Assembly: GCA_017433125.1 (NCBI GenBank)
Contig: JAFRHT010000019.1
Location: 1 to 35,183 of the forward strand
Reading direction: 5' to 3'
Origin: Solobacterium sp.
GTDB taxonomy: Bacteria > Bacillota_I > Bacilli_A > Erysipelotrichales > Erysipelotrichaceae
DNA: 35,183 nt
A program made the position numbers and the translations under genes. Of the stretch, positions 10,926 through 15,959 are shown piece by piece. The notes under the pieces were generated by a model. That model ran no database searches. It saw nothing but the letters and a program-made list of their open reading frames with translations, and was not told the origin of the DNA. Position 1 is the first letter of the stretch, and every line of letters begins with the position of its first letter.

Positions 10926-10970
10926 AAAAGGTGCGGGCATGAGCCTTCCGAATAAAGAAGTATTATGACA
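10926..10970 (+). repeat. Left 45-bp inverted repeat of the recombinase island
   Basis: It starts 5 nt after the nucleotidyltransferase stop. It matches the reverse complement of 15915-15959 at 36 of 45 positions without gaps, including blocks AAAAGGTGCGG, TGAGC and ATAAAGAAGTAT. The inner part can form a small stem, AATA-AAGAAG-TATT. Confidence 0.75.
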
Positions 10971-10974
10971 AATT

Positions 10975-11005
10975 CGGTGTAACCTTAATGGTTATGCCGT
11001 TTTTG
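10975..11005 (+). terminator. Probable terminator after the nucleotidyltransferase
   Basis: CGG-TG-TAACC, loop TTAAT, GGTTA-TG-CCG, then TTTTTG. The stem has a small internal mismatch. It lies just inside the left inverted repeat. Confidence 0.5.
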
Positions 11006-11028
11006 TTTGTTGTGTTTGATAGTAGCCG

Positions 11029-12624
11029 CTACACCAGATCATCACAGGTGAATATCACTTTCACTTTCTGTGTCCTGTGACCGTCCACTTTCTCAGGTGC
11101 GGATACGATGATCCTGCTTACCAAGTCACTGAGCGCTTTCGGTGTGACTTTCTCTAATTCGGTGTAGCCTTTCGCTTTGCTGATAAAGGTATTGATCTTA
11201 TCAGCGTTTGTTTCCTGTGCTTCCAGTTTCTTTCTGGAAATCGTTAACTTGCTTTGTAAATCAGATTGTTCCTTGCGGTAACTGTTAGCCAGCAGTTCAA
11301 ACTCTTCATCAGATATCTTGCCGCTTGCGTTATCTTCATAGATTTTGCGGAAAAGATTGCCTAATTCTGATAGCCTTTTCTCTGCTGAAGAAATATCTTT
11401 CTTTAAAGCCTTGATCTCTTCATCCTTGAGAGATTTCTGCCTGGAATGATAATTATCACGAAATTCCTTCTCATGACACTTTACCAGTTCAAGAGTCTCG
11501 TTTACGGCTTTGAGTACAATCTGCTCTAGCACTACAGCTCTGATGTAATGGGCTGAACAGGTTCCTTTGTTGCTTCTGTAATTGGCGCAACAGAAGAAGT
11601 CCTGTCTTTCCTCAAACTTGTTGGTAGTGCAGTAATAGAGCTTAGAACCGCAATCGGCACAATAGATATATCCGGAAAACATATTTGTTTTGCCTGTCTT
11701 GGCAGGCCTTCTCTTGCTCTTACGGAATTCCTGCACTCTTCTGAAGTCTTCTTCAGAGATGATTGAAGGATGAGTATTTTCAAATATCATCCAGTCTTTC
11801 TGATCTTTGTTTACCGTTTTCTTGGATTTGTAGTTTAACTTCTCCGTTCTAAAGTTTACGGTATGACCGAGATATTCTATTCTGTCTAGGATATCGGCTA
11901 CGCAATCAGGATTCCAGTTATACGGATCATCCTGTATCTTTGCCGGATGATTGATACCCATATTACGGGAATGAACTGATGGAGTTTCTATTCTTTCCGA
12001 ATGAAGAATAGCCGCGATCTGAGATGGGCCGTAACCGTCAAGGCATAATCTGAAGATATGTTTTACAGTGTTTGCTGCTACTTCATCAACGATCCATTTC
12101 CCGCGATCAGCAGGATCCTTCCTGTAGCCGTAGGGAGCGTTGGTGGTAAGATGTTCACCGGACTTTCCTTTGGCTTTCATGGATGCTCGTATCTTCTTGG
12201 AGATGTCCCTTACATACCATTCATTGAATAGATCTCTGAAGGGTAATAATTCATCTAATCCGTCCAGGGAATCGATATGATCATTGATGGCAATATATCG
12301 TACTCCTTTTTCAGCCAACGTCTTCTCTAAGAGATCTCCGACTACGATCCTGTCCCTTCCGATTCTTGAATGATCTTTGACGATGATTGTTGATATCCTT
12401 CCTTTGTCGACAAGATCCATCATCTTTCTGTATCCTGGTCTGTCAAAGTTGGTTCCGGAATAACCGTCATCAATGAAGAACTCGCAATTGAAAAACTGAT
12501 TCTCTTCCGCATATGCTTGAAGAATTCTTTTCTGATTTACAATGCTGTTAGATTCTCCCTGTAGTTCATCGTCTCTGGAAAGACGGCAATACAGGGCAGT
12601 GATCCTGTCTGACTGTCTTATCAA
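11029..12624 (-). CDS. Large serine recombinase (TnpX/TndX-like)
   Basis: The product has 531 residues. A resolvase catalytic domain covers residues 8-150 (YCRLSRDD with catalytic S16; [22 protein letters not shown]). A recombinase DNA-binding domain covers about 165-275, followed by a zinc ribbon with paired cysteines (CADC, then CC and a further Cys) and a coiled coil at about 380-470. This architecture is that of large serine integrases/transposases from clostridial mobilizable elements. The TTG start is supported by AGGAGG 9 nt upstream, and there is no other early start. Arg is mostly AGA or CGT rather than CGG as in the neighbours. Its 3' end faces the left inverted repeat. Confidence 0.9.
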
Positions 12625-12670
12625 TTTCTTTTACCTCCTGTAGTTTTAAGTACTTGTTTTTTTCTACAGT

Positions 12671-12684
12671 CAGACACACAACAG
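12671..12684 (-). repeat. Short motif shared with the right island end
   Basis: The minus strand reads CTGTTGTGTGTCTG upstream of the recombinase gene. CTGTTGTGTGCCTG is on the plus strand at 15903-15916, overlapping the right inverted repeat: 13 of 14 bases agree. It may be a recombinase or regulator binding site. Confidence 0.35.
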
Positions 12685-12724
12685 TGCTGAAAGTAGTATA
12701 CCATTTCATACATCATCAATTCCA

Positions 12725-12934
12725 TCATCCGTTGTCTTGTTCCAGAAGATATTTGTTCCAGATGGATGCCAGGGAATGGATTCCTTCATAATCGGTTTCT
12801 ATCTCATAGAGGGTGTTGCCAATCTGTTCATAGATCTTCTGTTTCGGTAAGAAATGTGATGAGAAGTTCTTAAAGGTTATTACTCCGTTGTCATCGATCG
12901 AATAATTGTGTTTTCTGGTAGTTGTTTCTGACAT
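12725..12934 (-). CDS. 69-residue hypothetical protein of the island
   Basis: A small polar protein without membrane segments, starting MSETTTRKHNYSIDDNG and containing IGNTLYEIETDYEG. The ATG at 12934 has GGAGTG upstream at a usual distance. It is 100 nt upstream of the recombinase gene on the same strand, so the two may share a transcript. Small ORFs in this position of clostridial elements include TnpW-like proteins. The IGxTxYE pattern is faintly similar, but I cannot assign it. The function is unknown. Confidence 0.6.
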   Translation of the reverse strand: MSETTTRKHNYSIDDNGVITFKNFSSHFLPKQKIYEQIGNTLYEIETDYEGIHSLASIWNKYLLEQDNG

Positions 12935-14371: not shown

Positions 14372-14387
14372 TATCCTTTCCTTCCTG

Positions 14388-15245
14388 TTAGTTAATACGC
14401 GAATTGATCCATTCGCTAATATATTTTTCGGCCTCTCTGGCCATTAATTCCTGCTCAGGAGATTTGCTGGTAGCTTTCAGAATCTCATATTCTGGATTAT
14501 TCTCTTCAATGAAACCATGTTTGGAAGCTTCATATTTCTTGACAGTGGTATCTATGCCATTTTCCTCCAGGGACTTCTGATAGATGAGAGATCCTTCGCT
14601 GATGGGATCATTATCTGCAAGGATAAATAATGACGAGCACATACTCTTTCTGAAGGATTCGCTTTCTGCCAGATATGTATCATTTACTTCCTTGATAAAG
14701 CCGTAACAGATGATCTGTCCGGAAATGTCGATTCCTTCTTCTTTCAGTTTCAGTGTGGAAGCCATCGCGTGGTATCCTCCGGCGGAATAACCCATGATGA
14801 AGATATTATCTGTATCAATGTCATATTCATCCGCATGATTCACGAAATACTTGACGGTATCAACAACTTCATTCGTACCATAGGCAATATCATAATCTCC
14901 TTTGGCAAGCTTATAGTTCACTGTTACTACATCGACATTCCACTCTTTTGATATTCGATCACTCTGTGTATCCAGGGTATCGGCATCTCCTGCAATGAAA
15001 GCGCCGCCGTGAAGATTGATCACCAGCGGATGTTTTCTGCCGTCATTTAACAGATACAGATTGACATCGACATCCTCTTTATCATCTCGCGGAACATAGA
15101 AATGCGTACCGATCAGTTCTTCATCTGTTTTGATCATTAATGCCTGCTGCTTTTCCTGTTCTTTGGAATTCCTGATCATTGTAATGATCAGAACGGCGAT
15201 TATGGTCAATACCACGATTCCTGCCGCTTTTAACACTTTTTTCAT
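14388..15245 (-). CDS. Membrane-anchored alpha/beta hydrolase (HSL-like esterase)
   Basis: The product has 285 residues with an N-terminal anchor (about 7-24) and an esterase/lipase domain of the hormone-sensitive-lipase type. The oxyanion motif is NLHGGAF, the nucleophile elbow is GYSAGG, the acid lies in ADNDPI and the His in SKHGF, so the triad is complete. The substrate is unknown, probably a small acyl ester. The start has GAGG 8 nt upstream. The first residues (MKKVLK) resemble those of the next hydrolase. It diverges from the TetR gene, which probably controls this two-gene operon. Confidence 0.85.
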   Translation of the reverse strand: MKKVLKAAGIVVLTIIAVLIITMIRNSKEQEKQQALMIKTDEELIGTHFYVPRDDKEDVDVNLYLLNDGRKHPLVINLHGGAFIAGDADTLDTQSDRISKEWNVDVVTVNYKLAKGDYDIAYGTNEVVDTVKYFVNHADEYDIDTDNIFIMGYSAGGYHAMASTLKLKEEGIDISGQIICYGFIKEVNDTYLAESESFRKSMCSSLFILADNDPISEGSLIYQKSLEENGIDTTVKKYEASKHGFIEENNPEYEILKATSKSPEQELMAREAEKYISEWINSRIN

Positions 15246-15281
15246 GCATATACCCTCATCAGAGTTGTGTTGACTCTTCCT

Positions 15282-15330
15282 TCTATTAATGATACATTTG
15301 TTACGTTACATATGTTACATTGTATCAAAC
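15282..15330. promoter_or_regulatory. Hydrolase/TetR intergenic control region with repeated GTTAC units
   Basis: Between the divergent hydrolase and TetR genes lies GATACA (about 15289), then TGTTACGTTACATATGTTAC, then TGTATC. The GATACA/TGTATC pair is an inverted repeat and the TTAC units are tandem. This is a likely TetR binding zone; the exact operator is not resolved. Confidence 0.4.
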
Positions 15331-15381
15331 ATGACTTCAATATGACCGGAGAAAATGTTACAGAGACACGGAGATTGTTAC

Positions 15382-15879
15382 ATGGCAGAACAGTTATCAT
15401 ACGCAAAAACTGAACTTACAAAAGCTTTATTGCTGCTTCTGAAAAAGAAAAAACTGAACGAGATCACCATTAGCGAATTATGTAATAAGGCAGGCCTCAG
15501 CAGATTATCCTTTTACCGCAATTATGATTCGATGGAAGAGATCATCAGGGAACATCTTTCCGGGATCACTGATTCCTTTTTGGCTTCATCATCTGCAAAT
15601 TTCCGCACCACTCCAAGAGAAGAGTTCATAACCTTGCTGTTTGAGCATATGTACAGCATTAGAGATCTGGTTTCTCTCCTTATCGACAACAATCTTTCCT
15701 ATCTTTTGAAAGAAGAATTTGATGCTGCCTTCATGAGAAGTGTCAACACCTACAATGACCCTTACAGGTGCTATGCAGCTTCGGGAACTTACTTCAATCT
15801 ATTCTATTACTGGTTTTCTAATGGCTGCAAAGAAAAACCGTCCGAGGTATCTAGGATGTTGGACGGATTTCTCGTATAA
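15382..15879 (+). CDS. TetR/AcrR-family transcriptional regulator
   Basis: A 165-residue regulator with an N-terminal TetR helix-turn-helix (about 5-55; ITISELCNKAGLSRLSFYRNYDSMEEI) and a helical C-terminal domain of the type often found in Bacillota (YCYA-like AASGTYFNLFYYWFSNG before the end). ATG 15382 is preferred because GGAG is 8 nt upstream; an ATG at 15355 has GGAG only 3 nt away. It is divergent from the two-hydrolase operon of the island and is its likely repressor. The inducer is unknown. Confidence 0.85.
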   Translation: MAEQLSYAKTELTKALLLLLKKKKLNEITISELCNKAGLSRLSFYRNYDSMEEIIREHLSGITDSFLASSSANFRTTPREEFITLLFEHMYSIRDLVSLLIDNNLSYLLKEEFDAAFMRSVNTYNDPYRCYAASGTYFNLFYYWFSNGCKEKPSEVSRMLDGFLV

Positions 15880-15914
15880 TATTCAGTTTCTCAAATTCTA
15901 GCCTGTTGTGTGCC

Positions 15915-15959
15915 TGTCTTGATACTTCTTTATCAGGATCGCTCACAGCCGCACCTTTT
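15915..15959 (-). repeat. Right 45-bp inverted repeat of the recombinase island
   Basis: It is the inverted partner of 10926-10970 (36 of 45 identical). The inner segment forms TGATA-AAGAAG-TATCA. One base-pair difference from the left copy is compensated on the other arm (A-T versus G-C). It ends 12 nt from the coaX stop. Confidence 0.75.

Follow-up and report, generated by a model that had tools for sequence, protein, structure and literature searches.

A 5.0-kb DUF4368-type serine recombinase element in Solobacterium with putative attachment sites in the loops of intrinsic terminators

A 5.0-kb mobile element of the gut bacterium Solobacterium sp. very probably integrates by means of its own DUF4368-type recombinase, through an attP × attB reaction at a CA core in which the loop of an intrinsic terminator serves as attB. 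The element extends from a core CA at 10938–10939 to a core CA at 15946–15947 of the window, by which we mean the whole 35,183-nt stretch of DNA analyzed here (contig JAFRHT010000019.1, assembly GCA_017433125.1). Judged from its alignment with other copies and with unoccupied loci, the long inverted repeat that frames it is the attL and attR of symmetric sites rather than two recombination sites in inverted orientation.

The element is located between two convergent host genes, a nucleotidyltransferase-like gene on the left (10013–10921, plus strand; Pfam NTP_transferase) and the type III pantothenate kinase gene coaX on the right (15972–16760, minus strand; gene and domain annotation). A repeat search of the window returned a 48-nt inverted repeat beside the stops of these genes at 10921 and 15972, with arms at 10923–10970 and 15915–15962. 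The arms match at 38 positions, and they include the 45-nt span with 36 matches that the initial annotation had reported next to both stops; in 100 trials with composition-shuffled end regions, the best match was 26/48. The same annotation had taken the repeats to delimit an AT-rich block exactly. They do frame such a block, with a G+C content of 37–43% versus 50–61% in most flanking 500-nt windows, but in both arms the outermost 15 nt belong to the host. When the same kind of scan was run around 14 distant recombinase homologues (34–44% identical), whose ends were assessed by repeat scan alone, the best scores were 10.5–19 versus 23 here, and no comparable end repeat was present.

Comparison of copies placed the left element end at flank-CA-YGAGCCTTCCGMATAAAG and the right end at CTTTATCAGGATCGCTCA-CA-flank, and conservation among the copies ends exactly at the CA on both sides. 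Joining of the window flanks at this common CA predicted the site AATAAAAGGTGCGGG-CA-GCCGCACCTTTT, a bidirectional intrinsic terminator, and the full predicted empty site, AATAAAAGGTGCGGGCAGCCGCACCTTTTGTT, was found letter for letter between the same two genes in a relative without the island (G019), whose coaX is 99% identical in protein to that of the window. Two further genomes (G077 and G006) are also empty at this locus and carry close variants of the G019 site. In BLAST comparisons with G019, the matches of the two flanks share exactly 2 nt, the target duplication being limited to the 2-bp core; either strand of the empty site folds into a hairpin whose GCAG tetraloop has the core CA at its center.

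Each repeat arm is composed of a 15-nt half of the host terminator (10923–10937 on the left and 15948–15962 on the right, both identical to the G019 empty site), the CA core, and a 31-nt attP half (P′ of attL at 10940–10970 and P of attR at 15915–15945), the last assigned from the repeat alignment and conserved in other copies. P′ is in register with the reverse complement of P; read outward from the core, the two halves are TGAGCCTTCCGAATAAAGAAGTATTATGAC and TGAGCGATCCTGATAAAGAAGTATCAAGAC, symmetric about CA. The dyad symmetry of both attB and attP about CA explains why attL resembles attR in reverse complement. Serine-integrase att sites are pseudo-palindromic about a central dinucleotide, the attP of A118 being an example (PMC3783163).

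When the genome of the window was searched with the left end, a second left end was found on contig C86, and the right end likewise returned another right end on contig C120; whole-genome searches with both ends yielded the ends of further copies and noise. In a protein search, recombinases 90% identical to that of the window were detected in G003, whose contig matches a Solobacterium sp. metagenome-assembled genome from water deer ileum, and in G136, an Erysipelotrichaceae metagenome-assembled genome from goat jejunum. The G136 contig starts exactly at the boundary CA, the position at which an assembly branching at the edge of the element would break. Besides the window, five further insertions were identified, two in the same genome and three in other species, so that the six-site set, drawn from draft metagenome-assembled genomes, covers six unrelated loci; the recombinase gene itself was observed in three of these genomes or sets of loci.

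The insertion in G003 was read at both ends (AAAAGACC[ACAT]GGTCTTTT), and its empty counterpart was not found in the genus. C86, C120, and G008 show one end only, their contigs breaking inside the element. C86 retains the left half AAGAGCCC, for which G006 has the empty site AAGAGCCC[GGAC]GGGCTCTT; C120 and G008 retain right halves, with the empty sites GGAGCGG[GCCA]CCGCTCC-TTTT in G019 and CTCAGC[GCAA]GCTGAG-TTTT in G083, respectively. The insertion in G239 reads CACGG[CATT]CCGTG followed by a T-run. The outer 15 nt of the repeat differ at every insertion site. Two irregular copies were also encountered. In the G239 copy (contig C37, L060 6150–6200), in which the recombinase end has been lost, the host CA core is fused to an internal CA-AGTTTCC corresponding to about 13152 of the window, as if attL had recombined with an internal pseudo-site. 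Contig C66 of G089 (L062 406–467) carries a divergent left-end remnant (84%) beside a stop codon, in which the CAYGAGCC boundary is absent.

All six insertion sites, situated between unrelated genes, fall in terminator hairpins with a 4-nt loop, always inside that loop; four have the core at the loop center and two have it one base off, and the empty sites of relatives confirm four of the six. Of the CA/TG steps in the host portion of the window, 1.2% fall within terminator-like loops, and the chance of hitting a loop six times out of six is about 3.5e-12, a rough value that depends on a lenient loop definition and on a single 30-kb region as background. These sequence comparisons give strong support to a preference for terminator loops.

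The competing explanation that survives best is that the recombinase has a relaxed specificity only, for a CA core with T/A-tracts, which terminators happen to match, while selection keeps insertions out of genes. We consider it unlikely. It accounts for the T-tracts that recur at positions 8–12 of the half-sites, and it agrees with other multi-targeting recombinases, whose targets are relaxed and often T/A-rich (PMC10083194; PMC13137831). However, selection for intergenic positions would not place six of six insertions in a 4-nt loop, and among 35 CA sites of the host that are flanked by T-tracts on both sides only 2 are palindromic, versus 6/6 insertions, for which reason the palindrome itself appears to matter. 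We tentatively propose, with slightly less than even confidence, that this recombinase subfamily picks its targets by hairpin architecture (G+C-rich arms, T-tracts, and a CA loop) and not by a fixed sequence; the intrinsic terminator of any host would then be a dispersed safe harbor, and the element's own terminator would insulate the neighboring genes.

The initial annotation had noted that inverted att sites would favor inversion and had listed, as one option, an invertible segment, in which the 45-bp repeats would be inverted recombination sites and the recombinase would flip the island. The repeats are indeed inverted and 79% alike, and a serine recombinase is encoded between them. However, in the repeat alignment the CA of one core stands opposite TG in the other arm, and the sites are therefore direct, with the attR core in the same orientation as that of attL; moreover, joining of the flanks reproduces the empty site found in a relative, and copies are present at unrelated loci. 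An inverting island is thus highly improbable. Since the cores are directly oriented, excision, and not inversion, is the reaction expected from this arrangement. Assignment to the inverton class, which requires inversely oriented cores, was rejected, the cores in the window being direct. Barely any probability remains for a transposon bounded by long terminal inverted repeats, or for insertion of the island between two preexisting copies of a genomic repeat, both suggested earlier by the two near-identical inverted units flanking the island: a transposase of another type is absent, no target duplication exceeds the 2-bp core, the outer 15 nt vary by insertion site and belong to the host terminator, the other significant genomic matches to the ends are ends of further element copies, and the empty sites contradict both. 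The repeat is instead a split host terminator joined to mirror-symmetric attP arms. What holds from the initial annotation is a recombinase-borne mobile island, with a genuine repeat tied to the recombinase.

In the integration model that we prefer, the recombinase would move the element by recombining attP with attB at the CA core, attB being the loop of an intrinsic-terminator hairpin. Such a terminator is a natural dyad, with G+C-rich arms flanked by A- and T-tracts, and can therefore offer two oppositely oriented half-sites to a recombinase dimer. Integration would split the hairpin, leaving a terminator half, CA, and an attP half as attL and an attP half, CA, and a terminator half as attR, and the mirror symmetry of the parent sites about CA would yield the observed inverted repeat. 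We infer the activity of the enzyme, its hairpin preference, restored termination, excision, and transfer from sequence.

The recombinase gene (11029–12624, minus strand) encodes a large serine recombinase of 531 amino acids in which the Resolvase N-terminal, Recombinase, zinc ribbon, and DUF4368 (Pfam, E value of 1e-15) domains are all present and the catalytic serine motif is intact; by sequence, its closest solved structure is the TnpX catalytic domain. Upstream of it lies a conserved 69-amino-acid open reading frame (12725–12934, minus strand), for which no Pfam match, no similarity to TnpW, and no database match were obtained. It occupies the position of TnpW in Tn4451-like elements and is a candidate directionality factor or TnpW analogue. 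The cargo consists of two alpha/beta hydrolase genes, a PETase-like one (13487–14371, minus strand) and one of the hormone-sensitive-lipase type (Abhydrolase_3; 14388–15245, minus strand), and a gene for a TetR-like regulator (15355–15879, plus strand) with a weak TetR_N match, whose start may be a later ATG. The C-terminal part of the first hydrolase is out of frame, and its comparison with the G003 homologue by tblastn gave two segments in different frames near 13660; this frame break reflects either a pseudogene or an assembly error. Cargo differs on a common backbone, with two hydrolases and TetR in the 5.0-kb window element and one hydrolase and TetR in the 4.0-kb G003 element (G003 cargo region read at L042 4303–5866, against 13487–15879 of the window). 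No tRNA or known RNA was found within the window.

Insertion into a loop would destroy the host terminator. At the recombinase end, the element carries an inward-facing intrinsic terminator (10975–11004, plus strand) with a 10-bp stem and TTTTTG, which is conserved in G003, C86, and G136 and shows paired changes (covariation) in the divergent G089 remnant. The opposite end has a less pronounced inward-facing terminator-like hairpin with a T-run, located within the 3′ end of the TetR gene (15830–15866, minus strand); it was recognized by folding and, having a long loop, was missed by the pattern scan. The first of these, perhaps aided by the weaker one at the other end, would restore the stop signal, and on this sequence evidence the element probably replaces the termination that it destroys.

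Copies in three genera (G003, G136, and G239) are 99.9% identical over 1.9–3.2 kb, and G008, C86, and C120 have ends that match G003 with 100% identity; the window copy has diverged, with identities of 87% across the recombinase region and 81% across the TetR region. Identities of 99.9–100% across three genera imply recent mobility and provide strong, though indirect, evidence from sequence for recent transfer of the element between genera. Mis-binning could explain the short G136 contig but hardly that of G003 (59 kb, with both flanks) or G239 (84 kb). No joint of an excised circle, the circular form proposed as a check by the initial annotation, was found in the assemblies; relatives were absent from viral contigs by pattern and by protein search, and a class-wide sample contained only one more recombinase at an E value of ≤1e-150, 46% identical.

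No relaxase or mobilization gene was found in the window element. Its conserved noncoding region at 13156–13422 has a relative in a sister element on contig C80 of G083 (L127 4535–5426), upstream of a NikA/MobC-like gene; beside this shared region, the sister element carries a 34%-identical DUF4368 recombinase, a TetR gene, and two hydrolases. The region matched no plasmid and gave one short weak match to phages. By its position in the sister element it is a candidate oriT, which may be used in trans.

DUF4368 marks a multi-targeting, TndX-like clade of large serine recombinases (Durrant et al. 2022, PMC10083194), and the window element resembles that clade in its domain set, DUF4368 included, and in its several unrelated targets. 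Published multi-targeting members use TT, GG, AA, or variable cores (PMC13137831), and their targets are relaxed and partly T/A-rich, with terminators unmentioned (PMC10083194; PMC13137831), whereas the window element has a CA core and terminator targets. The Tn4451 family (TnpX) likewise has a small open reading frame directly upstream of the recombinase, and the recombinase of Tn4451-like plasmid relatives is 44% identical to ours, but the terminator target and CA core set the window element apart; membership in this family was rejected, as TnpV, TnpW, and mobilization genes were not matched in the element. One 44%-identical DUF4368 recombinase, on an IncHI2 plasmid, occurs together with TnpV, TnpW, and a plasmid recombination protein, as is the case in Tn4451-like elements; its insertion lies about 36 nt inside a coding sequence and has a TT core. 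The choice of terminators is therefore not general to DUF4368 recombinases.

Phage serine integrases of the A118/LI type are alike in having pseudo-palindromic paired half-sites around a central dinucleotide (PMC3783163), but they are site specific, whereas the element described here occupies many unrelated loci that are recognizable by hairpin form and not by a common sequence. Group IIC introns, according to a passage of PMC3898094 citing Robart et al. 2007, insert after intrinsic terminators and likewise use these as dispersed targets; they are RNA-based retroelements inserting after the hairpin, while here a DNA recombinase would act inside the loop. A multi-targeting DUF4368 element is thus known as a kind, and the terminator loop is new as a target class; no description of terminator targeting by serine recombinases was found in the literature searched, with subscription journals mostly outside it.

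For annotation, these results carry a warning: where a serine-recombinase island is bounded by a long "terminal inverted repeat," the repeat can be the attL and attR of symmetric sites and not inverted sites. Intrinsic terminators occur between genes in most bacterial genomes, and they should tolerate insertion if termination is restored. If terminator loops do serve as attB, this would be a natural case of a serine recombinase choosing its target by palindrome rather than by sequence, with possible use as a host-independent integration tool, and it would explain how the element spreads from genus to genus without depending on a conserved target gene.
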